Source: Polyodon spathula
Taxonomy: Eukaryota; Chordata; Actinopteri; Acipenseriformes; Polyodontidae
Length of the DNA stretch: 64,000 bases
NCBI RefSeq assembly: GCF_017654505.1
Contig: NC_054538.1
Location: 54,361,786 to 54,425,785 of the forward strand
Reading direction: 5' to 3'
Each line of letters begins with the position of its first letter. Position 1 is the first letter of the stretch. Position numbers and translations under genes: made by a program. The notes beneath the pieces were generated by a model. The model was not told the DNA's origin. It was given only the letters and a program-made list of their open reading frames with translations, and did not search any database. Below, in pieces: positions 9,913-52,494 of this stretch.

Positions 9913-10849
9913 CACGATTGATGGTTCCCAAGTCTTGTTTGCCCGAGGTCATGAGGCTGGCACATGATAGCCTTTCTGCAGGGAACCTCAGAGCTGACAA
10001 AATCAGAGAATGGATATTGGCTCAATTTTATTGAATAGGACTTCACAATGAAGTGACGAAATATGTAGCCACATGCTTAGACTGCCAGAGAGTAGTGCCC
10101 GGTCGAGTGAACCCCACCCCTTTGGTTCCACTGCTGATTATTTTTACCCCCTTTGAACGCATTGCAATGAACACAGTTGGCCCTTTGCTACCTTCTGATT
10201 CCAGGTATATGCATATATTAGTGGTGGTAGATTATGCAACGTAATACCCGGAAGCAGTTCCACTAGTGCAGCTGCAATAGCCAAAGAACTAGTGCAGATT
10301 ATGGCTATAGTAAGGATCCCCAATGAAATCTTGATTGATCATGGAACTAACTTTCTGTCTAATACGTTACAGCAAGTTTGCAAAATACTAAAAATCCATC
10401 CCTTCAGGACATCTGTTTACCATTCAGAGATGGATGGTTTGATGGAACGTTTTAATCAGACCCTAAAGCAGATGGTGAGACTATTTGTGAACCAAGAACA
10501 AAAACATTGGTCCTCGCTTCTCCCCTACCTTCTTTTTACAGGGAGAGAGGTGCCACATAGTTCAACAGGGTTCTCCCCCTTCAAGCTTTTATATGGCGAC
10601 AGCCTCACGGCATCCTGGATCTGTTGAGAGAGGAGTGGGAGGAGCACAAAGACTCATCCAAAAATGTAGTACAGCATGTGCTCCTACTGAGAGATCACCT
10701 GGATTTGGTCGGTCATTGTCCCAGGAAAATCTCAAATCGGCTCAGCACCCGCAACAGCAGCATTACAATCAAGATGCAAGAATTCGAACCTTTCGACCAG
10801 GAGACAAAGTAATGCTGCTTCTTCCCTCTCTGAAACAAAATGATGTGCT
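9913..10849 (+). pseudogene. pol: Ty3/gypsy integrase fragment
   Basis: Translation gives, in order, an H2C2-like zinc-binding region (AHDS at about 9960, GNLRADK where the second histidine is replaced, CLDCQ at 10078-10092), the integrase core from about 10140 (AMNTVGPLLP, where the first catalytic aspartate is replaced by asparagine; LIDHGTNF with the second aspartate; ERFNQTLKQM with the glutamate), and a C-terminal FRPGDKVMLLLPS at about 10790. In-frame stops occur at about 10035 (a tryptophan codon turned TGA) and 10241. Protease, reverse transcriptase and RNase H are absent, so this is a truncated, dead copy. It ends inside the codons of the usual K-W-Q motif, where sequence jumps into an LTR. 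Confidence 0.85.
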
Positions 10850-11376
10850 AAATGGCAGCCGCAAATTGGAGGAGCGGTTGCACTAGTTAACCAAGGGGTC
10901 ATGATTGACTGTACAAAAGGGGACGTAGAGAAGTGATCTGTTCCCTTGTATGGTTAAAGCTGAACAGGAAGGAGAAAAGTGTATTGAGTTTTGTTTATTT
11001 TTGTCATGTCTAAGGAACCACTTTGTTGTTATTAGAGAGCTGAACACGATCCAGAGCTGTCGCCAAGGGCCAGCACTTATCCATATAAAACCACCATTGT
11101 TCACTATACTGTATTTGCAGCATGAGCACTAAATCACACACTATGTTTGTGTTTTGTGCTATGTGTGGGTGTTAAAGATCGGGACTGTTATTATTTCGGG
11201 ACCAACCTGTGGATTAAACAAAGCAATACACGCTGCTGTATTGCCTGTTCTCATTATTATTATTTGGACTTTGGACTGTAAAAATAAACATCATTGGACC
11301 TGGATTATTGTTATCTGCCTGTTTATTGATCACTGCTGCGTTCGTGCACCTGCACATTGTTAACCAATTTGCCACA
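10850..11376 (+). mobile_element. Ty3/gypsy 3' LTR, 5'-truncated
   Basis: This stretch aligns through most of its length with the solo LTR tail at 25705-26248: both share GGCAGCCGCA, CCAGAGCTGTCGC-AAGGGC and a terminal ...TTTGCCACA. An AATAAA lies at about 11282 and a TATA-like ACAAAAGGGG near 10914, both in plus orientation. The first ~165 bases of the family LTR are missing, and the join to the integrase falls in the shared word AAATGGCAG, as expected for a deletion by microhomology. Confidence 0.75.
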
Positions 11377-12355: not shown

Positions 12356-14033
12356 TAGGGTTACCAGACGTCCCGATAAAATCGGTATCGTTCCGATAAA
12401 ATTGGTATCATCCCGATATTAGGGGCTTTGTCCCTCGTCCCAATAGAGGTACTTTCGGGAACTTTTTTAGACTAAACTATGAAAACCCAGGAGAAAAATG
12501 TTATTATTTTCTCGTTATGAAATTTCGTAGATGTGGCTACTGTACTGTCTCCCGGTGCAACAGCATACTCTACTGGTTTAGGGCATGTTGTATGAGTGCG
12601 ATGTTTGCATTGTATCTATGCGGCTATCCAGTCACTTTAATCTGCAATCATATGATGCGGTATGCGTCATGTGTTTTACTTGGTGCGTCTGGTTTTACTG
12701 ACAAAGTGTCATGGGGCTGGTGTTGAAGATCCTGTCACTAAAAAGAAAAAAGAAAAAGTGCAAGTACTGAACACAGTGGCGGAGGCGGGGGGGGGGGGTG
12801 GATTCAATCATGACTGTGTTACAAAGACATTTTGTAAATTGTGTAAAAAAGAGTGCGGCATCACACAGCTACGAGTTGGATGTGAAGCACCACGCAGGTG
12901 GGATACAACATTATTATTATTATTATTAGTAGTAGTAGTATTAGTATTGTGAATGTGAATTGAAGCTTCGTAAGTAATCGAAGCTCAAAAGTAAAAATTA
13001 ATTAATTACTGCAAGGAGTTCTACAGTTATGTCATCAGCAAAAAGGATGTTATGTGGACCTGTTTAAACATTAAATACACCTAGATAATATTTCATAGCA
13101 CTATAAAAGCCTAAAAATTGTGTTACAATTAGAAACAGTCCCAAAACTCAGCTACCCAAAGGTATCTGACATTCTTTAATAAAGTCCATATATGCAGCAT
13201 GTTCATTGTCATGTTATTTGTCCCGTCCAGGAATTTATTTGATAAGTACAGAGCCAAACAAAGAAAACCAGCATATATTCGTGTCAAAAATTCTAACTGC
13301 GTTTAAAAAGTAAACAGCAAGTTTTTTGAACCGATGTAGCTGTTCTTGATTGTAGTGCTGATTTAACTTGGGTACAACCAACACAGGAATACTTTTTTGT
13401 CTGCGCTGACTTTCCAGTTTGTTTTCTGAAAGCTGTTGTTTGTTTTACATTCTGTTCAGCAGCCTTTTGTTTAACGTGTGATTCTGAAGTTATAGCGATC
13501 GATCGAATTTTAAGTCACATTACAAGATGTTCAATACAATTACCTCTATTTGCATGTACAGTTTCGTTGGGGAATGTCTTGACACAATCCTCAGCCAAAA
13601 TGTACTTTGCTTGCTTTGTTTTGTCGTCCATTTCTGTTTTTTTTACATTTAATGCTGAAAACTAGATTTTAGCAACCTAAATCAAAACATTGGAGCACTG
13701 ACTTTGTCCCACCCCCTACTGTACAGTACAGGTCACAGTAAAGCAATACAGATGCACTGATAGGCTGATAAAACATTGTTGTCATCTGAACAGTAAATAA
13801 GAAAGTTAACCGCTTTGAGTTTTTTTTTTTTTTTTTTAATGTTTCTCTACGTTTTTGTTTTTGCCTAAGTGCAATGCACACAGGAAGATTAAATTAAAAA
13901 AGCCTGTGTACAAAGAAAGATATGTAGTTTGCGTCACTTGCGTTGTGTAGTAGTTCATTTAAACAAGGTTTCTATCTCCCCCACACCAACTTAAAGTGTC
14001 CCTATTTTTCACTCTTACTATCTGGTCATCCTA
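12356..14033 (+). mobile_element. hAT-type DNA transposon, internally decayed
   Basis: Left end TAGGGTTACCAGACG (12356) and right end, read on the minus strand from 14033, TAGGATGACCAGATAG form an imperfect terminal inverted repeat. The flanks GATGTGCT (12348-12355) and GGTGTGCT (14034-14041) form an 8-bp target duplication with one mismatch, as expected for hAT. Inside, at about 12820-12900, a frame contains FCKLCKKECG, a C-x2-C half of a BED-like zinc finger often found at the N-terminus of hAT transposases. No DDE core or hAT dimerisation domain remains, so it is not autonomous. It is the latest insertion in this stack. Confidence 0.75.
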
Positions 14034-14041
14034 GGTGTGCT

Positions 14042-16350
14042 CAGGGGTCGGTGCTGGCTCTGTGGCTGCAACTCTTAGTGTCTTAATCTTCCTTTGTAAA
14101 ATACTATAAACAAAACAATGACAAAAGCTCTAGCCATTAGTTACATTTCAGCGCAAGGCCCAGTGCTGACGTAGCTGCTTCCCCTTTGTACCATAAAACT
14201 CCTCCCTGCAATCAACCTGTCACTGTGGTTTCTCCAATCGCTCTCTGTCCTGTCACTGATTTCAAGGGAGTCCTTCTACGTATGAGTAGCTACGCGCTTC
14301 CCTTAATATGGTCACCTTCTGGTTTCCGCCTATCGTCAAAGCTGTCCATTTAGGAGGAAGCATACCACCAACCTTACACAGCGCCCTTTCTATTCAGGAG
14401 AGAAAATCCTAAGGGGTTCACAAACTTTCTCTCAGCACTGTATATGTAGCATCCCTGAGTGGTTTAGAGGTCTGTTTTGTGCTTTAAATTATTATACAGT
14501 ACAAGTTCTCAAAAAGACGCAGGATAATGAATTTTTACAGCTTTTATTTGTGTCGTCGGTACGACTATTTTTCAAACTCAACACAATGAATGAAACTGAA
14601 GTATTCAGACTCACTAGTAACAGAGTAATAAAAAAAAAACAAGGCATAAGGTAACCACAGTAATGATATTACATTATGAAAATGTGTCTTTTGCCACTTT
14701 GTTTATTGTGCAGAAACCATAATACCAGGAATACATTTTGTTTTTAAAATCTACTTTTATACTGTTTCTGCCTGGAAAATATTTTTATGGAATAGATCTA
14801 CGCAGAAACACAACAAAGAAACACACAGAATATATTATTGTAGGATTAGTAATAAGTAAAAAAATACATAAAAGAAACAGTCATGTATGTTCTAATCCAA
14901 GGCTATTATTGTAGCGTGGCCAGGTCCTGTTGTAGGTGCAGGTTAGCTGGTACCTTGCAAATGTTTGGCCAATCGGTGTGCTGATGGAAATAGGATCTAC
15001 AGAAGGTATGAACATGAATAGGACATCAGCACAAAACAAGCCAAGTTTATTCACCTTGAAATCATAAAAAGAAAGGAAAATTGACAGATCTGGACGTTGC
15101 AAGCCATCGGGAGAAATCATCACCAACTAAATCATCACCATTTTCTGCCAGATATTTACAATTAGGATTGTCAGCGTTAGGCAGTGTTAGCTAATGGACA
15201 GACAATATTGTCATAGAAAGGCACCAATACATACATCTCTGCAATAAACAGTGGCTGTTCTTTTTATTAAAGCATGTGGAAAAAAAGCTGCATGAATGGA
15301 TTGCTTGTCTCTCAGTTCACTTTATTGTATTGTTTTAATATGTCTCTTATTTTTGAGTATGTTCTTTTATTGTCAGCACAAACTTAATGGACACTGCCGC
15401 AGCCAATCAAAATGCAACATGCACGTCATTATGCACCAGTTGATGTCTACCTCTTTAAACAAAAAGGCTCATCACTTTCTTTAAATTATCCACCATTTAC
15501 ACAGATGGAAGCTGAAATGAAATGCAAAGTGTAAAGCTACTGGTAAGATGTGACACAGACTTTTGCATGACATGCTAAAAGTATTACAATAACAACATCA
15601 GCAGCTATAGAAAGCTATAGGACCCCAGATGTTAAAACCCTTTTTTGCTCTTCAATCCATGAAATATTCAAGGTGTCAAGCACTGTACAGAATGAGGTAT
15701 GTGGGGGCAGAGGTACGTAAGAAAAATTAGTTTAAAAGAAAGAAAAGATATAAAAATGACAAACTTTCCATTGGGAAATTCAGCAGTCCTGTTCTGATAT
15801 GACCTGTTAACCATTTAGCGGCTGAACTTTGTGGATGCTTAAGGTGGGTGGCTGCTAATTATACTGCCTTTCTCATTCACTTGTATTGAAAGAAATGTTC
15901 TGGGGTTCACTAGCTTGTTAAAGTGACCGTTAATGTGGGTTGTACTGTATTTGAGTTATCCACATTTGCAAAACAACTGCATAGAAATCATCATCATGTT
16001 CAGTCAATAACTACCATAACATTATAATTAACATGGAAACAAAAACCTTATTATGGGTGAAAAAAAAGGTTTACAGGGTGCATAATTTAATAAGAAAGCT
16101 ATGAATGTGAAAAGAAATTAAACCAGGATATGAACTGTCAATGAAAACCTCTTTCTATAAAAAGAAGAAAACAAACAGTGCAGCTACAGAAAGATGCAGA
16201 TGGCAATGGATTGATTATATTATCCTATGTTAAACCCGTTTGCAGCACAAAAAGATGCAAAACTGATTGAACACACATCCTTAATGAGTTGCTAAAGATG
16301 AAACCAACTAGTCCTATTCAACCCCCACCACCCGCTCAAATTAAGAAATC
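14042..16350. other. No recognised gene
   Basis: The first 400 bases continue the unclassified insertion seen at 12151-12355. The rest is AT-rich with only short frames. The minus-strand frame at 14881-15126 (81 codons) has no recognisable motif. Confidence 0.45.
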
Positions 16351-17423: not shown

Positions 17424-17960
17424 AAAAATACTTTTGAGGAAGAGCTGTAAAAAGCAGCAAAACTGGCAGCTGCTGCAACAGCAGCAGTCGCAGCCTAACA
17501 GGTGGTGGTCCCCGGTTCCAACATCATTTGGACCCCCAGATTGGCAGCCGAACAGGAGCAGTGGAGGAGGGAAGGAGCTCCTATGTGTGGCTCCTGTGGT
17601 GAATTTGGGCACATCCAGGAGGACTGCCCTTACGGGGACCCGTAGTATGAAGAGGAGTGGACCCAGGGCCATCTCCAGCTCCCAAGAGGGAATTGTCCGA
17701 GTGTCCACAACCAAGAGGGAGTAGTCGGTGCATCCACATCCCAAAAGAGAGGAGGCCAAAGTGCAGCTTCTGCTGCCTCCTTCATGGCCAGGGGCTCCCC
17801 TGCCGCCGTCGCCTCCAGAGGGTCTGCTGCTGCCATCGCCTGGGGTTGCCAGCTCTGCAGTTTGCTGCAGGAGATCGTGTGGCTGAAGTCCCGGAAGAGG
17901 GAGTTGCCAGACACTAAGAAGTGGGGGTGAAGGACCTCCCACCATGGCCGCCCCCATGGA
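17424..17960 (+). pseudogene. gag: Ty3/gypsy-type gag remnant with CCHC zinc knuckle
   Basis: A glutamine- and tryptophan-rich stretch (WQLLQQQQSQPNRWW, 17464-17510) leads, after a frameshift near 17570, into CGSCGEFGHIQEDC (17586-17627). This is a perfect C-x2-C-x4-H-x4-C nucleocapsid zinc knuckle. A stop follows at 17643. The later text is proline/arginine-rich and runs to a G-rich tract and an LTR. Pol is absent, so a deletion has joined gag to the 3' LTR. Gag would package element RNA; this copy is dead. Confidence 0.75.
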
Positions 17961-22850: not shown

Positions 22851-23030
22851 AAAATCCATAATACTTTAAATACAGAGAACTGCATAATTGTCACAGAAAT
22901 ACAATGATTCTGGGTGGTAAATCTCCCTCCCGACCTATGAGGACACTAAGCAGCGAGAACAGAGTTCTTTGGATGGGCTAGTCTGACAGTTCTTTCCCCG
23001 GGTTGGGAGGTCGGCCAGTCTGGAAGAAGG

Positions 23031-25682
23031 TGTCACGTCTGCCTCGTTTCTTAGATTTTCACGTACACTTTTTATTCGGTCTTATTTATTTTCTATTTAT
23101 TCTGCACACACTCAACTCAGGGGAGACGTTAGGAGGACAGAGATGTTTTAAACTCCTAGTGGTTTATGTTCGAGCACTGGACGAGCTGTAAGTATGTCTG
23201 TATAACCTTTATTTAATCGGAAAGAAAGACACTCAAGACTCATTCATTTTAAGTTTTACGAATCAGAGCAATGCACTTGCGCTTTATTAAAATGCTTTTA
23301 ATATTGGAAAGGTAGGTTGATCAGACCACCAAATTCCAATACACGCGGTCTACAAGCACCCACTTCTATATTTCAGTTTCATTCAATATAACACTCTCTT
23401 AAAACCAAAACATAGTTTCAAAACCTTATAGCATGTAAGATATAAGATATACATGTAAGATATAACAATGTTAGTAATATGCTTACCTCCTATTATAAGG
23501 AAAAGTAGCGTGAACAAAGGAATCAGTCTGAGTGATGGACCACTTCACCCTGTCAAGCAAGGTTTGGATTGTGGTACCCCTTTGCGAAAAGTGTGAGTTT
23601 TTATAGGATTCATATCCTAGGAATACATGGAGAATCTTTATCAAGTCTCTTTGGCACACATCAGCCTAAAAATTTAGAGCCTTGTGTCAGCAATTTTTCA
23701 AGATACGACACCTGGTCCACACATCCGATCATGATCTCATCTCTCGACCCCTCCTCTATCCAAAAAGTTAGATGAAACAAAGAAAATAATATTATTTTGA
23801 ATATATGAGTGTTGTTTGAAATATATACAACACTATTAGTTATGATTATACTGATTATATGTATTAATGTCTAATAATATATTCCCTCATGCCATTCTAT
23901 TCTTCAAATTAGTTTTCCTTCTCTCTTTACAGGCGTGTGCTTAACAGATATTATAGGGAACTTCCATTATGTTTTTCTAATATAGAGTTTCTCTTCATGG
24001 ATAATCTATTTGTTTTTTATTTAAGTGTAAGATTGTAATGTCTTTGTCCTATGAGTTTCCTAACAGCACGAATTCAGCTGAACTGCGGACCACCTCCTAT
24101 TTTATTCAGCTGCACAAAAAACAGCTAAAACCGGTTCGCTAGCTGTGCACTTAGCTTTCCAATTTCCAGCGATAATCAAGGTTTTTTCCAATTTTTCTAT
24201 GGTGAGAAGACACTCTAACCTTGATGCTGTTAGATAAGAGAACTCCGCTCTTCATGCCAACTATCCCTTCACTTTCTGGCACGACTTTAAGACAGGCTCA
24301 CAGCAAGTTATAAAGTTTTACCTTCTTAAAACCCATCTTCTATTCTTTTTCTTAAAATTACTTTTTATTATTTGTTTAAGGTTCTTATTTTATATTTCAA
24401 ACAGCATCTCTTTCTGCTGCATCATCTTTTAACTCAGAGTCAAACCAAACAGTTTACTCCCTATAGAACACGATTATTAACTATTTTAAATGCAAACCTA
24501 TCTTGACGAGAAACAATTTCATGTATATTATTATAACAGGCAGTGTTAAGCATATGGTCTTACACGCACAAATAGTTTATAGTAAAAAGCAAGCATATTA
24601 AACCTTATTTCAACATTTAACAACATTTTCTTAGGCTAAAAAGGGTGCTGTAAAGACTTAGCATTCAATTCTGGGAATCAAGCCCATCTTGATAAGGAAC
24701 TGCCTAAAAACTGGCCACTTGTATCAGACTATATCAGTTTCTACTGCATGATTTTACATTTAAAGAATGCATGATTTTCACAATTATTGATTAGAGCAGC
24801 ATTAAACATTACATTTGATTACACATTTACATAATTTACCAAACAAAAAGATTATACAAACACTACAAAAGATTATAACACATATTATTGCATTAATACA
24901 TTTCATTTTAAATTCTCCAATCCATGTCCAGGGTTTCAGCTCGCTCCCAGCAAGACTCCACTTCGGTCTCAGGTTCAACTCGGGTTGGCTCAGCGAACAC
25001 GACAATAGGCTCTCGAATCCATCGTCTCGCATCACAGGTGTGAGTCGCCATGGCCTTGACTTCGTACCTACAAGACACTTGTACACGCTTAGTAGGGACA
25101 CCTTCCTCACATTCTAATTTTCCCAGATGCGCCCATTTTACTAAGTGACCTTTTCACAACTCATGCATTCAGTCCTCTTAATATCTTTTTGGGTTTACAT
25201 TTAAATGAGAGAAAGAAACTCCTACAGAATCATTGCATTCAAACAAGATTCTACAGTGTTTAGCCAAATGACTGCATGCCGGACAAAGTCTGAGCCCAGT
25301 CACTGATGACTTGCTTTGGCACATATTACATGCATGATTAACAAGAGGATTATGTTTTAATTTATGTGACAGGGTTACTTCTGCACCATGTACAATAGTT
25401 CTGGATCTGTACACATTGTTACTATACATTTCTTTCTGCTCATACAAGGTCACTTTAGAAGGGATGCCATTCATCCAGAATACAGTAGGGGGCCAAAACT
25501 CACTGTTTTTCATATCAGCAGGCACCTAACTTGTAGTTTGTTTATCATCATCCGTGGGCAAACTCAATACAACTGAATCTGAATCAGTTGATGAACCATA
25601 AGTCTTAGCTACTGAGATTCTCCATACAAAAGGAGTCAATGTTTTACTGACCAGCCTAGCTGATTCAGCGTTATTTGCGACA
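23031..25682 (-). mobile_element. Retrovirus-like solo LTR B, 2652 bp
   Basis: On the plus strand it begins TGTCACG and ends TTGCGACA. The flanks are AAGG at 23027-23030 and AAGG at 25683-25686, a perfect 4-bp target duplication. On its own (minus) strand it begins TGTCGC and ends GTGACA. Signals fit this orientation: a TATA-like CCTATAAAAAC near 23600 and AATAAA-type signals at about 23290-23080. This gives a U3 of about 2.1 kb and an R-U5 of about 0.55 kb. Its 5' end carries the accessory frame listed at 25178-25682. It sits inside a gypsy solo LTR. The exceptional U3 length and 4-bp duplication suggest a complex retrovirus-like family rather than gypsy. Confidence 0.75.
25178..25682 (-). 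pseudogene. Accessory-type ORF remnant in LTR B
   Basis: The frame runs from the LTR's first bases to a stop at 25178 with one in-frame TAG at 25528-25526. It has KTLTPFVWRI near the start, then ADM, GIP, YEQ-x2-M and C-x2-CQ-x11-C-x2-C (CNMCQ...CPAC). The ORF in LTR A has the same landmarks in the same order: ADM-x17 to the end of GVP in A and GIP in B, then 59 or 60 residues from ADM to the first cysteine pair. The two-pair cysteine motif suggests a zinc-binding domain. The frame is also open upstream into flanking DNA, which is by chance. The true N-terminus would lie in the lost internal region. I do not recognise a named family. Confidence 0.55.
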
Positions 25683-26329
25683 AAGGCATTGACCCGGAAT
25701 GGAAACAAAATGGCAGCCGCAGATTGGAGAGGCGGTTGCACACATTTACCAAGTGGTCATGCGTGACAACATAAAAGGGGATGGAGAATCGTAATCTGTT
25801 CCTTCTCATTGGTAGTAGTGAGTAAGAACAAAGGACAGTGTTGTGTTTTGTTTGTTTGTAATTGTCTTGTCTTCTACGCTACCAGACATTTAACAAAGTT
25901 CCAGAGCTGTCGCTAAGGGCAGACACTAAACCGGACAACACTACACCTTTTGTCACAAATATAAACCTGTATCACCCACCATGAGCACCACTGCGCGCAC
26001 CCAGGACTGGTGACAGTGTTTGTATTATTGTGGGACAGATATTGTTTATTATTTGGGACTGTCTGTTCTTGTATTAAATACCATGTGTTATACACATTGG
26101 TGTCTGCTGCTGGGGAATTATTGTTTGGTCGCTGGACCTGGAAATACAAAATAAAAACATTTCCATACTGGATTATAATTATCTCTGTCTGCTTTTTTCA
26201 CGCACTGCATCACTGCTGCACCTGTATACAATAAACCACTTTGCCACAATAATACATTAAATGCAGTAAAAAATGCATAATCCATGACATGCATTCAACA
26301 CTCTTTATACTGCCTAGTAAGGGCCATGG

Positions 26330-26707
26330 GCAAAAACAGGCAATAAGCGAGGGTGGCGTTATATTGAGGGTCCAAAAATAAAAAATAAAAAAAAACACAC
26401 ACTACCTGCTATGTTTGCAATAAATTCAAATGTTTTATTTTTTTTAGTTCTACAATTACGGTATCTCCAGGCAATTTTAATAAAACATTAATCTTTTTTT
26501 TAAAACTACAGTACTAGTACTAACACAACAATAGGTGTACTAATGATGCTTTATCATCTTTTCCCATCTCTATGAAACATACATGGTTACTTTTGAGGAA
26601 CAGTTTATAAAAAAAAATAATTATTATTTTTTTATCTTTTTTCATTTAGTGTCAAATCCCAGTTTAATGGGTTTTGTTGTCAAAGTATTTGTGTTTTTGT
26701 ATATATT

Positions 26708-26769
<62 letters not shown>

Positions 26770-27390
26770 TTTTTTTTTTTTTTTACAGTACTGGTCGTTT
26801 GAACTTTAGTGTTTGTGGCACGACTGTAAGCCTGCTGAATACTATCCCCCACTGAAAGATGCCATCTATCTATTTCACAAAGCAATTTAAGCTCAACATA
26901 ATTATTTTTTAAGCAGTTAAAAAGAAACGTTGAATATGTACAGACAAACACTTTTTAAACGAAAAGTAAAAAAAAAACACTATTCTGCTGTTTCCAAAAC
27001 TGATGCTTAAGTCAGCCTTCATTTGTGCAAAACTTGCATGTAAACAAACAAACCTCTTATCCTACTTTTTTTTATTATTTCTGTGGTTTATAAAAGTCAC
27101 TTATTTTAGACTGCATCAAGCCCTTTTCGGGTTAAACAAATCAACCCGTTCTGTCAAGGTAAGTCATTTGTTTTTATTCATTACAATGTCTCCAATTGTT
27201 CCTTGATTAACAGTATGCTTCACTTAGGCGAGAAAACATTATCAATGTCTTGCTGACTTGCTTTCTTATTTTCAGATGCATACATGGCGATTTTTTTCTT
27301 TTGCTCTGGTGTTAAATGTAGGGTCGACTCGCCATTTTGTACTTTCTGTTTTGCTTTGGGAGCGGGAGTGTTGATGACATTGGTATTAAC
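26330..27390 (-). mobile_element. Possible Tigger/pogo-like element remnant
   Basis: On the minus strand near 27340-27230 a frame reads LTPEQKKKIAMYASENKKAS, similar to the start of a helix-turn-helix in pogo/Tigger transposases (a K-x2-I-x2-Y/A-x-E-x-N pattern). At about 26345 the plus strand has AATAAGCGAGGGTGGCGTTA, reminiscent of Tigger termini. A (TA)n microsatellite (26717-26765) lies between. No DDE domain is left and the second end is unclear, so this is tentative. Confidence 0.25.
26717..26765. repeat. (TA)n microsatellite
   Basis: Uninterrupted TA run followed by a poly-T. Confidence 0.95.
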
Positions 27391-28947
27391 TTTCTGTTAA
27401 CAATGAATTAGGAAAGAGTCAAAGGTTAACTGCACAACTGTGTTGTTTTAATTGGCCATGATTATTTCTCTGGCACTACAATGAGAGAAACTACAGTGCT
27501 TATATTTACGTTTGCTTAGCTTGGGAAGTTGGCACATGGCGGAGAGCTGGGTGCGATATAACTGGTAAAAATAGTAGAGTTTTTATATTGGTGACATTTG
27601 TTCAGAGAGAATAGCTGGCGGTATGTGAGGGTGGTGTAAGGGGGGGGCGGTATAACCCAGACAACTGTAGTAGCATAATACATGAAATAGTATCACAGCA
27701 GCTAATAGAAGATTTCAGGCTTAAAGAGCGTGGAAAGCAAGAGAGAACAAATGTGTCTTGAGAGTTGATTTAAAGAGTGAGCATCACGTACCAAAGCTGG
27801 GAGAGAGTTCAAATAATCGGAGCCATAAAGCTAAACGAGCATTCTCCAAGTGTGTTGCACTTTTGCTTGGGGAGTCAGAGAACCTCAGCTGGCAGGCAGG
27901 GACATAGCGAGTCAGCAGGTAGAGGAGGTACTTGGGACCTGTGTGATGAAGGGCATTGTAGGCGAGCAGGTGAGTTTTGAAAGTTATCCTGAACTTTACA
28001 GGTAGCCAGTGCAGCCGGGCAAGACAGGGGGTGATGTGCTCATGTCTTTTACATCTGGTAAGGATCCTGGCAGCGGCATTCTGAACTAGCTGCAGTCGGT
28101 TTATGATGCATACCGGGAGACAACCATAAAAAGAGTTGCAGTAGTCAAGTCGAGAGGAGACAAATGCATGACAAAGTATCTCTGCTTCCATGATGGAAAG
28201 GTAGGGATGGATATGTTTCGAAGATGGTAGAAGGAAGATTTGACCACAGAGGAGATGTGGGCATCAAAGGAGAGGTTGCTGTCAAGAAGTACACCAAGGC
28301 TTCGTACTGTGGAGGAAGGCAGCAGCAGACAGTTTCCGAGATTCAGGGCATTTATATTGAGATTCTTAAATTGAGTTTTAGATCCTACTAGAAGGAGTTC
28401 AGATTTGCTAGTGTTCAGCTGAAGAAAATTGGCAGACATCCAGGCCTCGATGTCTTGAATGCAAACGAGAGCCCGACCATGGCAGAAGGGTTTCCAGCAT
28501 CGAGTTTTAAGTAGAGCTGGGTGTCATCGGCATAGGAGTGAAACATGAGGCTGTGTTGGTGGATGAGGTGACCCAAGGGGAGCATGTAGATATACAAAAA
28601 AGGGGCCCAAGAACAGATCCCTGGGGAAGACCACAAGTGACTGGGTTTGCTACACCACTGCATCCAGCATAGAAATCAGACTGCATGCGTCCAGATAGGT
28701 AAGAGGACATCCAGGAGAGACAGGTTCCAGAGATCCCAGCATACTTCTGCAGGCAGTCAAGAAGAATGCCATGATCTATGGTGTCAAAAGCAGCTGTTAG
28801 GTCAAAGAGGAAAAGCACGGAGGGAGCTCCAGCATCAGCATTAAGCAGGAGATCATTCACAATCCAGAGCAGAGCAGTTTCGCTACTGTGATGCAACCAG
28901 GAGCCAAACTGTAGAGATTCAAGCAGATTGTTATCTGTGAGATTGTC

Positions 28948-29521
28948 ATGGAATTAATCAAAACCCTTGAGCCTGGCACGGTGTGGGGAATACATAAAAT
29001 AAATACTGGTGTTCAGGTAGGCTCCTTGTTTAATATGTTGCAAATACCTACTGACTGTGGCTACAGCACGGAGGAGTGGAAAGTGGCAGATATGGAGGCA
29101 ATTCCATATTATATTAGAGACAGTCAAATGGCCCACGGTGTGCCCAGATTAGAGTATTTATGTGAACAGACTGATATGGATAAGTACGGCACTTTACATA
29201 ACTGCCCAAGATATGGTTTGAGAGTGATAAATTCCAGGAATAAACAAGCTTCTCCAAGACAACCCGATTGTTGTGACGAGTGCCAGCTAAGAAAACCATT
29301 TCAAAAGATTGTTTGTACAGTTTGCTCCCCTGGAAGATGTTGTGTTTATACTGAGGTTAGTTCAGGAGAGCCAGTCTAATTTCAATATAAAAGAAAAAAT
29401 AAGAGCAATCTGCCTTAAGTGTAGACTGGGAAGCCATGGGAAGCATGATATGTCTAGTGTAGGGAGCTTACTGAGGGAGTTGCAGTACATTACAGGGAAG
29501 AGCTTGCTTGCTTGCTGCTAA
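28948..29521 (+). pseudogene. Accessory-type ORF remnant in LTR A
   Basis: From ATG at 28948, five bases into the LTR, 143 codons run to a stop at 29379. A second frame, overlapping by 70 bases, continues to 29521, so a frameshift is likely near 29330-29380. Landmarks: KTLEPGTVWGI, ADM at residues 47-49, HGVP, CEQTDM, and C-x2-CQ-x10-C-x2-C (CDECQ...CTVC), then a further cysteine cluster and, in the second frame, CLKC. The same landmarks appear in LTR B. A gene that starts in the internal region and ends in U3 is typical of complex retroviruses, for example foamy virus bel genes or MMTV sag. I see no similarity to a particular named protein. Confidence 0.55.
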
Positions 29522-30065
29522 GTAGTTTTTATCATAAAATATAGTTGCATACTACATGTTCTATACTTAAAAATAAACCTATGCTCTCTGGTCACTAGCA
29601 CCTGTTTTTCTCTAAAAAATTGATTATAGTTATCTTTTCTTTTAACACCTTTTCAGTGAAGCAACAACACCTCAAGTATTTATAAGCTAGGGGCTTTTTC
29701 TAACTAACCATTTTCTCAGACAAATTAAATTACCCAGTAACGCCATCCGACAGTGTATTTTTATCAGTAAAAAGGTCAGGGTGTTTTTTGGTCTTGCAGT
29801 ATCGCTCATTAGAATCGGGTTTTTAAGGACGTAGGCTGAAGTCTATTTTCTGTGAAGATGTTAAATCAAGATGCATAATTAACATGCTAAACTTGTGATT
29901 ATATTTACTTAAACTAATGCCTTAGAATTCTATTTACTTAGAGTAGTATGTGCATTTTTGCTTGAATGTGCTAAATATTTTGTAGCATGAATCTAAAGAT
30001 TTAGGTAAGCTTGACAGCTAGCAGACACATTGTAACCACATACCGCACGAGCAGGGGGGTTGTGG

Positions 30066-30113
30066 TGACGTCATGAATGGTGGGTAGGCAACTGAAACAT
30101 TGGACATAAAAAC
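30066..30113 (+). promoter_or_regulatory. LTR A core promoter with CRE and TATA-like box
   Basis: A perfect palindromic cAMP-response element TGACGTCA (30066-30073) lies about 32 bases before CATAAAAAC (30105-30113). This is the usual layout of a retroviral U3 promoter; transcription would start at about 30135 and define R. CREB/ATF control is an inference from the site alone. Confidence 0.55.
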
Positions 30114-31570
30114 TTTAGTCAAACGATACTAAAGTGGTCTTTTTTCTGACCTCCAATCCTCATCTGAACTTGTAAGAATTTGAACCCAGCCTCTGTAGTG
30201 TAATCCTGATTTGAGACTCTGCCTGAAAAGCCTTCACCTACTGATTGACATCACCAAGCCGCTCTGAATCAATTGTACCTGAGAGAAGGGTCAGCATATA
30301 TTCATTGCCTGAATTATAATGTCTTAAGTATGAGTAGAATTAGTATAGCCATGATGTTAGGTGGTTTAGTTAGATTAGTGTGCCTGGTTGAAAACAGTAA
30401 CTGGTTTGAATTGTTTCTCGTTCGATTGTTCTTTAAATACTTGTATGATATTTTATAAACGTGATAAAACATTGTTAGAAACTTAAGTCATGAAACACTT
30501 GTATTATTGTGTCAGTAATATTTCTAATTAGGAAGAGTTTTGGATAAAACATTGTTAAAAAACATTGTAATATTATCACTATTGTGCTTCATTAAATATA
30601 GTCGCTCAAAAGGAGACTGTTATCCTAAATACAAGTATCGTGTCTGTGTTTATCTCTCATAACATTTAGTAGATTCTGTGTATTCATTTCACTCGGGCCC
30701 AGTGCATGAAAATTTATCCACTAGGAGTACTGCTCCCTCCTGAGTTTTACCTTCATAAGACTCGAACGTGACAAGATATTTCACAACTGACTGGCTACAG
30801 CCCTTTCGAGAGCTTTGGACAGAAAAGGGAGATTGAACAGAAGTTGACTAAGTCAGCCAGGTCGGTGGAGGTTTTATTGAGTACTGACGTAACTCGGGGA
30901 AGCTTAAGGGTAGCAAAAACAAAGCCAGAGTCCAGGGACAAGCTGAGAGTGTGCCTAATGGAAGGAGCAAGATCAGATGCACAGAGATGGACAAGAGTAG
31001 TCAGCCAGGGGTCCAGGGGGCACATGGCAGAAGTTGATTTCAACAGTAAGCTGGAGACATCAGCAGTGGAGAGAGGAGAGAAAGTGAAGAGTGCAGGAGG
31101 GGCAACCGGAGGAGATTCAAGGTGGTCAAGTAGTAGACTGGGTTTGTGGCAGGAGAACGTAGAATAGATGTTGTCAGTTTTGTTCTGAAAGAAAGAGGAG
31201 AAATCATGATAGGTAAGGAGGATGAACAGGAGATGGATCTGTCGGAGGCAGGATGTAGGATGTAGGATGTAGGAGTGGGGACATTGACAGACTGAGAGCC
31301 CAAGACAGCCCAGAAGTCTGTTGAAGTCAATCACTGGGGACAAGGAAGGCAAGTCAACATGAATGTTGAAGTCACATAGGAGTAGGATTTGTCATTAGAA
31401 GTGCAGTCGAGGGAGAAGAATTCTGAAAACTCAGCAATAAAAGCAGAGTTATTCTTAGGTGGACGGTAGATAACAGCAAGTGTGAGGGACGTGGGAGAGG
31501 GGAGCTTGACGGCAAGATGCTCAAATGAAGAAAAGTATTAACAGATAGTATTTCAATAGATATCAATAGT

Positions 31571-37640: not shown

Positions 37641-39660
37641 CGGTACCAAAGCTGTCGTGGCTCCAGATTACTGACAGTACAGCCTTACACACGATAGCCT
37701 CAGAGCCCACATGACACCTAAGGGCATGTCACCTGCAACACCCTAGAGCCCAGAGTGGGTCTCGCTCAGTTTGCAACATCAAGGCAGTAAAAACGTGCAA
37801 ATGTCTGACTACCTGTCCATGCAGCATTGCAGATCTCATCTAAAGAGGCGCCATGAAGGAGAGCCCACAAAGTTGCCTAGTCCCTGGTAGAATGGGCCTT
37901 AATGTCACCCGACAAGGGGGAGTCCGTCTGTTCATATGCCAAGCGTATAGCATCTGCCACTCAGTGCGCTAGATGTTGCTTCGATAGGTCCTGACCTCTA
38001 GAGTGGGAACCATAGCAGACAAACAGCTGGTTCGATTGACTCCAGGATGCTGTCCTATCCAGGTAACAGTGCAGAGCCCGAACCATGTGCTGTCTAAGGT
38101 CCTCCTCTGACTTGTGCTGGAGAGGTGTGAAAGTATGCAAAACCACTGGTTGGTTAATATAGAATGAAGATACCGCCTTTGGCAAAAAGGCTGGATTTGT
38201 TCTTAATGTTACCCGCACATCATTTCCAGTGAAAGCCATACATGTGTCATCGATGGACAGCGCATGAAGCTCACTTACTCGTCTGGCAGACGTAATGGCT
38301 ATTAAAAACGCTACCTTCAAGGAAACAGGGCGCAGTTCTGCTGACGCCATGGGCTCATGGGAGACCCCTAAGGACCTACAGTACCAGTTCTAGATCCCAC
38401 TTGGGGACCATACTTTTCATGGGAGGACGAAGCCGCCGAGCCCCTTTAAGAAATTGCACTGCCAGGAAGTGTGGCCCAGGGGACACCGAGTCAATTTTGT
38501 CGTGGCACACTGATATTGCTGCCAGGTATGCCTTCAAAGTGGACGCTGTTTTTCCTGCATCAAACAGATGTTGTAAGAAGGTTAGTATTGTCTCAGTAGG
38601 GCAGGTCACTGGATCACAACCTTCGGCAAACTTTCCATTTATATGAATACTGGCCTCTAGTGCTCGGGGCCCTAGCCAACTGTAGTGTCTCTACCACTGC
38701 ATCTGGCAAACCTCGTCTGAATAGACGGCTCCGTTCAACGGCCAGATCCAGAGTTGGAGCTGGGCTGGGTTCAGGTACCATAATAGCCCCTCCACTTGGC
38801 TCAGGAGATCCTTGCGTAGCAGGAGCTGCCACGGTTGACCTGACAACATGTCGGAGAGGAGAGCAAACCAGGGGTGCCTCAGCCATCTGGGTGCAATCAG
38901 CAGAACCTGTGTTCTCTCCATCCTGATCCTCTCTAGTGTCAGGGGTAATAATGGTAGCGGAGGAATCGCATACAAGACCCCCTGTGGCCAGTTGTGGGCT
39001 AGCGCGTCTACTCCCAGGGGCCCCCCGTCTCTCTCCATGGAGAAACATAGGAGACAATGAGTGGACTCGGCTGTGGCAAAGAGGTTGACTCGTGCCAGCC
39101 GAAACCTCCCCCAAATCTGTTCCACCACTTGAGGATGTAGTCTCCACTCTGAGCTGTCTGGAGCTCTTCTGGACAGGAAGCCTGCTGCCTTGTTGTACCG
39201 CCCTAATGGTACACCAGTTTCTGTGCATCCAGGACAGGAGTCTGTGCGCTGCGTGGTGAAGGCCTGGCGAGCGCAGGCCGCCTTGATGGTTTATGTAGGC
39301 TACCACTGTAGTATTGTTCGTCTGGACCAGCACATATTTGTGCGTTAACTGCTGGCAAAAATGAAATAACGCCAGGGTTACTACTTGCAGCTCTTGGGCA
39401 TTTATGTGCCCTTGCTGCAAATGTCCCTTCCAGTAACCTCTTATTCCTCTCTCATTCCAGACCGCTCCCCAGCCCAGGCTGGAGGCTTCTGTAGTGACCT
39501 CCCTTCTGTGAGGGAATCCAAGCATGCTCACAGAGTTCAGTTTTATCCCCAGGAACACTGTGGACTGAGACGGTAAAAAGTTGCTCTTCTGTTGATGTAT
39601 AGAGAACCTTAGCTTTGTCACATGATCTATGACCTATTTTGTGCGCGCCTCGGCGCATGC
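37641..39660 (-). pseudogene. DIRS-type element: RNase H and tyrosine recombinase (copy 2)
   Basis: Minus-strand order: RT/RNase H part (SIHQQKSNFLPSQ, EASSLGWGAVWNE, GHINAQELQVV, VLVQTNNTTVVAYINHQGG) from 39621, a linker, the recombinase N-terminal domain (APSTRGQYSYKWKVC, then TASTLKAYLAAISVCHDKI at about 38560-38500), and the catalytic domain. Its first arginine lies in ITSARRVSELHALS (38300), the H-x2-R in AHSTR (about 37900), and the nucleophile tyrosine in FARFYCL (about 37800). A TAG follows HSTRD and frames shift more than once, so it is inactive. The 5' part with most of the RT is missing beyond 39660. Recombinase and DIRS-like ends together make the assignment firm. Confidence 0.85.

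Positions 39661-51107: not shown

Positions 51108-52494
<1,387 letters not shown>

Follow-up and report, generated by a model that had tools for sequence, protein, structure and literature searches.

What is encoded along the 5′ edge of two large long terminal repeats (LTRs) in the genome of the paddlefish Polyodon spathula? The window, the whole stretch of 64,000 nucleotides that was analysed (contig NC_054538.1, positions 54,361,786 to 54,425,785 of the forward strand), contains two such repeats, LTR A and LTR B, each with a reading frame that runs from its first bases (frames A and B). We consider it highly probable that both are solo LTRs of two diverged, related retrovirus-like lineages, in which the 5′ part of the U3 region codes for a cysteine-rich accessory protein that has been under selection.

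LTR B (23031–25682, minus strand; 2,652 bp) reads TGTCGCAA...GCAGACGTGACA and lies between perfect 4-bp AAGG target duplications at 23027–23030 and 25683–25686. LTR A (28944–30773, plus strand; 1,830 bp) reads TGTCATGG...GAACGTGACA and lies between perfect AGAT duplications at 28940–28943 and 30774–30777, within a minus-strand long interspersed nuclear element (LINE). The duplications, together with the TGTC and GTGACA ends, are as the preliminary description of this DNA had claimed; TG...CA ends with a short direct target duplication, the marks of a solo LTR, are found in LTR A, in LTR B and in A-type copies elsewhere in the genome. No further LTR B copy was detected within the window (blastn, E 0.01). 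The low nucleotide identity reported earlier was also confirmed: compared as DNA, the two LTRs yield only short matches (best E 0.11). Their 3′ tails (30654–30773, plus, in LTR A; 23031–23210, minus, in LTR B) show a partial likeness that includes a common CCACTAGGAGT, with a score reached by 3 of 500 shuffles. When the flanks of LTR A are joined, LINE-like coding sequence is seen by eye on both sides, but its frame is not unbroken. The LINE coding split by this insertion occupies 27784–28953 and 30774–31391 on the minus strand, where the motifs AFDTIDH and GLPQGSVLGPL can be read by eye.

The preliminary description had listed landmarks that recur in the same order and at the same spacings at the 5′ end of each LTR, and all of them are present. 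Frame A (28945–29379, plus strand) spans 144 codons plus a stop from LTR base 2, with its first ATG at 28948, and carries KTLEP, VWGI, IPTD, ADM, GVP, LCEQ, CDECQ and CTVC. Frame B starts at LTR base 2 and ends at 24908 on the minus strand, 258 codons with its stop counted, and falls into three pieces: 51 residues without a Met, open from LTR base 2 until an in-frame stop interrupts them (25529–25681; KTLTP, VWRI, SLPTD); 115 residues (25181–25525; ADM, GIP, LYEQ, CNMCQ, CPAC) that match P0001, a hypothetical protein of 201 residues from Acipenser sinensis; and 81 residues from GHLVKWAH to DMDWRI (24911–25153, stop at 24908–24910). The stop between KTL and ADM had gone unmentioned before, and the frame is interrupted again between the second and third pieces, which we assign to one protein because P0001 covers both. 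KTL and ADM are 42 residues apart in both frames, and 17 residues separate the end of ADM from the end of G-V/I-P in both; from the end of ADM to the first cysteine there are 59 versus 60. The cysteine motif itself, given earlier as C-x2-CQ-x10/11-C-x2-C, stands except for its gap, which measures 9 versus 10 residues after CQ, the Q apparently having been counted in.

Both window copies of the gene are broken. The protein of LTR A continues in another frame (29375–29479, plus strand; the ICLKC...H block), a stretch that is weak when taken alone (17 of 2000 shuffles; hhalign E 0.11) and through which other A-type genomic copies align with the family. In addition, the window LTR A lacks 112–135 bp that are present after LTR base 553 in all nine complete genomic copies compared. 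None of 1000 dinucleotide shuffles stayed open from the LTR start for as long as frame A; a sense frame of that length appeared anywhere in 1 of 1000, and on either strand in 9 of 1000. The corresponding counts for frame B (44, 11 and 142 of 1000) are unremarkable because that frame is broken.

By sequence comparison, the frames in the two LTRs are homologous. Their similarity, whose absence the preliminary description had named as one of two outcomes that would refute its reading, held up in shuffle tests, though hhalign was weak. Aligned as proteins (with X at the B stop), A and B scored 76 with BLOSUM62 (shuffles 27.7±4.5, maximum 55) and 115 with BLOSUM45 (36.9±6.0, maximum 71), a level reached by 0 of 2000 shuffles in each case; the part before ADM and the part from ADM onwards were each reached by 0 of 5000. 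Among 1536 six-frame chunks of the window, the only ones to score higher with B were three that overlap frame A's own place. Identical codons number 34 of 122 aligned between the window copies, BLASTP of frame A against the second B piece gave E 0.004, and frame A scored 61.7 against a three-sequence profile (33.6±5.6; 0 of 300 shuffles). A candidate third copy at 12949 (plus strand) reached 82 with BLOSUM45, yet it is full of stops and has no match to B; it was rejected, as were chunks at 16187 (plus), 55034 (minus) and 21917 (minus).

The less damaged genomic copies carry this homology further. The A-type copy L027, read as it stands, runs without interruption for 226 codons from LTR base 2 and aligned over most of its length with P0002, a further protein of the family (score 190 versus 46.2±7.5, 0 of 500 shuffles, z about 19). 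The protein is therefore longer than had been seen before. L029 and L025 also scored above all 500 shuffles against P0002, the score of L023 was matched by 1 shuffle of 500 and that of L022 by 6, and L010, L018, L026 and L028, which are interrupted in frame 1, did not exceed shuffles. With tblastn, P0002 found L027 (E 9.8e-9) and L010 (E 1.6e-8) across ~180 residues, including a near-end HTCDA(R/K)xW block.

The frame also bears the imprint of selection. The ratio of nonsynonymous to synonymous substitution rates (dN/dS) was below 1 in 36 of 36 pairs among nine A-type copies (LTR bases 2 to 400; median 0.55, range 0.35 to 0.92) and in 66 of 66 pairs among 12 B-type copies (0.20 to 0.64, median 0.32); within each set the pairs are not independent, and the B-type copies were collected by protein similarity, which favours low dN, the A-type copies by DNA. 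Differences among A-type copies at the three codon positions were 0.105, 0.127 and 0.150 over 432 columns, with a third-position excess at p 0.027. Non-coding U3 of LTR A (bases 701–1200) differed by 0.221 versus ~0.127 in the frame and gave no significant phase signal (p 0.97, 0.27 and 0.13). The 5′ U3 thus holds a frame conserved at the protein level, as a gene overlapping U3 does, and the protein-level constraint proposed earlier for both LTRs is supported by the shuffles, the L027 alignment and the dN/dS values together.

To follow the two types beyond the window, the P. spathula genome (G000; 1.54 Gb, 4204 contigs) was searched with LTR A as DNA and with P0001 as protein. LTR A gave at least 88 matches from the 40 scored of 130 candidates. 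P0001 matched at all 150 scored places, out of 1390 candidates, with 62 to 80% identity; 23 of the 150 matches, by our count, have no internal stop. Both ends were recognisable at 12 of 20 fetched A-type places, and 7 of these 12 keep a perfect 4-bp duplication (by eye). The ten best B-type loci begin with TGTCAC ~169 bases before the P0001 Met. At L015 (G000:C4:58053856-58061528) a reversed B-type LTR lies inside an A-type LTR, so the A insertion is the older one there. Many B-type copies have numbers of TGA and TAA similar to those of the window copy; perhaps a subfamily spread after the gene broke.

Where, then, would translation begin? In 11 of 12 B-type copies, the frame stays open and free of Met codons through the 56 codons that separate the LTR edge from the conserved Met (L030 is shifted there). 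Because this stretch is conserved between A and B types, we take it to be translated, and translation without a Met therefore calls for a start upstream of the 3′ LTR, for splicing or for a non-AUG start; for the B type, entry from upstream or through splicing is probable. The earlier suggestion of a frame that extends from the internal region into the LTR thus gains indirect support, with no upstream continuation seen. The window A copy and three other A-type copies have an ATG at LTR base 5; L027, L028 and L029 are open at the LTR start without a Met.

In the mechanism that we propose, one cysteine-rich accessory protein gene would make up the 5′ part of U3 in both LTRs, and selection would have preserved its coding capacity as the elements multiplied. 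Within a provirus, the 5′ LTR would supply the promoter for the copy that lies in the 3′ LTR. That copy would be read as the downstream portion of a frame whose start lies ahead of the 3′ LTR, or be reached by splicing, because the B-type LTR part has no start codon before the first conserved residues. The position of such a gene would resemble that of nef, sag or bel2. The retroviral class, the membership in a complex retroviral lineage, proviral expression, splicing, zinc binding and function are all parts of this picture that we infer.

The LTR alone would supply a protein of about 220 to 260 residues. P0001 and P0002, which represent this LTR-borne part, have no membrane segment by hydropathy, and the paired C-x2-C motifs suggest a zinc-binding protein. 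By analogy with Bet or Nef, it may serve as an antagonist of host factors or as a regulator, in the cytosol or in the nucleus, a tentative reading that we favour slightly over others; activation of transcription would be the next likeliest function, at a somewhat lower grade. The most far-reaching version of our proposal, which we hold to be doubtful, would be an undescribed complex retroviral group of sturgeons, comprising at least two lineages with a zinc-binding LTR gene, whose internal splice acceptor would yield a spliced product, like rem or Bet, and also serve host genes as a 3′ exon.

Several results weigh against reading the frame as a selected gene of retrovirus-like elements. Among the copies examined, no provirus, reverse transcriptase (RT) or other pol sequence, env, primer-binding site or polypurine tract was found in association with these LTRs; copies viewed with both flanks proved to be solo LTRs, and the search for full-length proviruses that the preliminary description had proposed, run here with LTR A, returned none among them. 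Between the 20 fetched A-type places there were 18 shared-flank matches, none abutting the LTR, and the ten best B-type loci had no common upstream flank at the LTR edge. The same-strand pairs checked were the two closest noticed among the P0001 matches, read in separate pieces. Neither is a provirus. One, on C6, has B-type LTRs 83% alike and 9.9 kb apart, and the pieces of it that were read by eye showed no retroviral frame; the other, on C5, has B-type LTRs 98.3% alike and 19 kb apart, with LINE sequence between them. Internal stops are present in 127 of the 150 scored P0001 matches, and in 8 of 9 A-type copies frame 1 is interrupted by stops over the length of the protein; stops held in common by several copies suggest that elements with an already broken frame went on to multiply. 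For the A-type copies with an ATG at base 5, translation could begin within the LTR. The core-promoter regions of the two LTRs are dissimilar (409 of 500 shuffles reach their score), and frame A had no relative among 5.8 billion proteins (two candidates, none at E up to 10). The window A copy was weak both in hhalign against a small B-family alignment (E 0.0036, probability 9) and against P0001 alone (73 of 2000 shuffles reach the score). The shuffle null is itself lenient, the stop-ridden chunk at 12949 scoring above all 2000 shuffles, and the non-independence of the dN/dS pairs belongs here as well.

Two loci from the provirus search are recorded for themselves. The C5 pair (L044 and L045; G000:C5:46037900-46058000) has a run of N before its second LTR and is perhaps a segmental duplication. 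A frame of 730 codons on C8 that runs into an LTR was tried as a missing link and rejected; its upstream part is repetitive and proline-rich, and by eye it was taken as read-through from another element.

Relatives of the protein come from sturgeons. The second B piece matches P0001 with about 62% identity (E 6.3e-40), and set against the two later B pieces P0001 shows 63% and 83% identity. A profile built from P0001 and two B pieces retrieved ten proteins among 395 candidates: nine from A. sinensis, plus P0002, which diverges from the family close to its C-terminus. In Pfam, the window pieces and P0001 to P0010 matched no family above cut-off except for an immunoglobulin part of P0005, and no foamy-virus, Bel or Nef family appeared among the matches up to E 10. 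Bel and Nef families are present in that database. The lineage had been called unnamed or poorly described, and this is borne out: named relatives are sturgeon only, and nothing in Pfam passes its cut-off save for the immunoglobulin part of one chimeric gene model. Within open-licence papers, the portions available of the sturgeon retroviral and foamy literature, including PMC7269910, PMC7599744, PMC8227577 and PMC4977317, do not describe the gene.

Searches further afield gave little. Neither frame A nor P0007 had a relative in viral contigs; a match to one such contig (L001) was a ten-residue identity with nothing further in its frames by eye, and was taken as chance. A CRIPT-type zinc ribbon was considered as the origin and set aside; one B piece matched it at E 0.0014 without passing the curated threshold, and P0002 at E 1.7. 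Searched by sequence against the PDB, the A/B alignment had no match up to E 10, P0001 had one (C2HR1_4r, E 0.025, no stretch passing) and P0007 had seven at E 0.34 or worse. AlphaFold models were uninformative (A with B, predicted local distance difference test score 33; P0001 with five further rows, 43, predicted template modelling score 0.38), as was Foldseek, whose best match had E 0.062 among viral structures and E 0.44 against the PDB.

Genes in U3 are known from other retroviruses: in the passages available from PMC12789967, nef lies partly in the U3 of the 3′ LTR, and mouse mammary tumour virus (MMTV) has sag and the second exon of rem in its LTR. The paddlefish frame resembles sag and rem in its place in U3 and, like rem, may provide a C-terminal piece as a 3′ exon behind an acceptor-like AG; it differs in that Sag is a type II membrane protein, whereas P0001 and P0002 have no membrane segment and no Pfam match was found. 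Like lentiviral nef, as outlined in the same passages, it would enter the 3′ LTR from upstream, yet the protein here is cysteine-rich and matches no Nef family in Pfam. The part of PMC12193657 at hand describes the snakehead retrovirus 3′ open reading frame as an accessory frame near the 3′ end of a fish retrovirus with a cysteine cluster, its protein being largely dispensable for transcription; the cluster spacing is unlike ours, judged by inspection of that description and not by alignment. Two accessory frames without recognised relatives are mentioned for a coelacanth element in the accessible text of PMC3386198. The gene in the paddlefish LTRs looks like a new accessory gene within the end repeat, a location known for a few other retroviruses.

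The alternative that survives best would make the LTRs members of a described group, the foamy-like endogenous retroviruses (FLERVs), with the frame as a highly diverged gene of bel2/acc2 type. According to the available part of PMC6950176, foamy bel2/bet extends into U3, and splicing gives rise to Bet and to an Env-Bet fusion; the U3 position here resembles that of bel2. Accessory genes (bel1/bel2, encoding Tas and Bet, and FLERV acc1/acc2) lie between env and the 3′ LTR, and in the excerpt available from PMC5512871 those of cichlid AciFLERV follow env, have no known relatives and encode 234 to 253 residues, a size similar to the 220 to 260 residues of the LTR part. This LTR part alone is known here, and the FLERV acc genes were compared by description only; none of the Pfam matches up to E 10 is to a foamy-virus family, and no RT was seen. 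We therefore regard a FLERV origin as tenable, on the unlikely side.

Because no provirus was found, two further readings have to be considered. The LTRs could belong to retrotransposons of another class, such as Ty3/Gypsy, with an LTR-borne gene and no retrovirus involved. Retroviruses are not alone in having TG...CA ends and 4-bp duplications, neither env nor retroviral RT was seen with these LTRs, and a Gypsy-type integrase piece is recognisable by eye at 10199–10627. No sequence links that piece to the LTRs, however, and genes inside U3 are otherwise described for retroviruses in the passages seen of PMC12789967; we judge this reading unlikely, though the missing provirus adds to its weight. 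Less probable still is that the copies are independent repeats, which move with the frame in them and lack any form with two LTRs. No paired element was found among the copies examined, and the many B-type copies with common stops indicate that spread did not need the frame; against this, an LTR accounts better for the TG...CA ends, the 4-bp duplications and the position, right at the element's edge, of a conserved frame that lacks a start codon. The copies inspected were a small fraction of the total, and in old families solo LTRs are usually much more numerous than full elements.

Could the frame instead be selected in host genes, with the LTRs as incidental carriers? Seven of the ten A. sinensis-type proteins, P0004 to P0010, join other N-termini to a nearly identical C-terminal piece of the family, and one of them (P0005) has an immunoglobulin V-set domain at its N-terminus. 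Six of the seven switch into the family just before (R)YKVK, and P0008 does so two residues later. The switch of six of the seven gene models falls, in frame B, on the AG of a candidate splice acceptor at 25068–25069 (minus strand; TCTTGTAG/GTACGAAG), just before RYEVK. No relationship links the N-termini among themselves (best pair E 0.69) or with P0001 (E 0.85), as expected of a dispersed repeat caught in gene models; these are annotation models, possibly artefacts, and the joins may reflect exonisation or annotation error. Selection in host genes is accordingly very improbable, and the LTR exon that contaminates sturgeon gene annotation stands as a warning. Residues 1–200 of P0007, on a contig of 15,340 bases, contain four N-glycosylation sequons and a KGKR site; as they offer nothing more, the idea that this N-terminus is an env exon was rejected. 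Finally, that the resemblance of the frames is chance or motif picking, for which the 34 of 122 identical codons and the low hhalign probability might speak, is contradicted by the shuffle tests and by the unbroken L027 at z about 19.

If U3 of these retrovirus-like LTRs does carry the selected gene, a further unrelated protein family, in many copies, in the U3 of a basal ray-finned fish would suggest repeated colonisation by accessory genes, and a protein with alignable relatives at two depths would offer a handle on what U3 genes do.

Other remnants of mobile elements surround the two LTRs. A segment just next to LTR B (25708–25872) is 72% identical to 10850–11011, which follows the Gypsy-type integrase piece. 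A CCHC zinc-knuckle-like motif at 17586–17627 (plus strand; CGSCGEFGHIQEDC) is perhaps decayed Gag. By eye, long frames at 37961–39633 (minus strand) are like those of a DIRS-type element, and a long frame at 51473–52132 (plus strand) is like a Tc1-type transposase.

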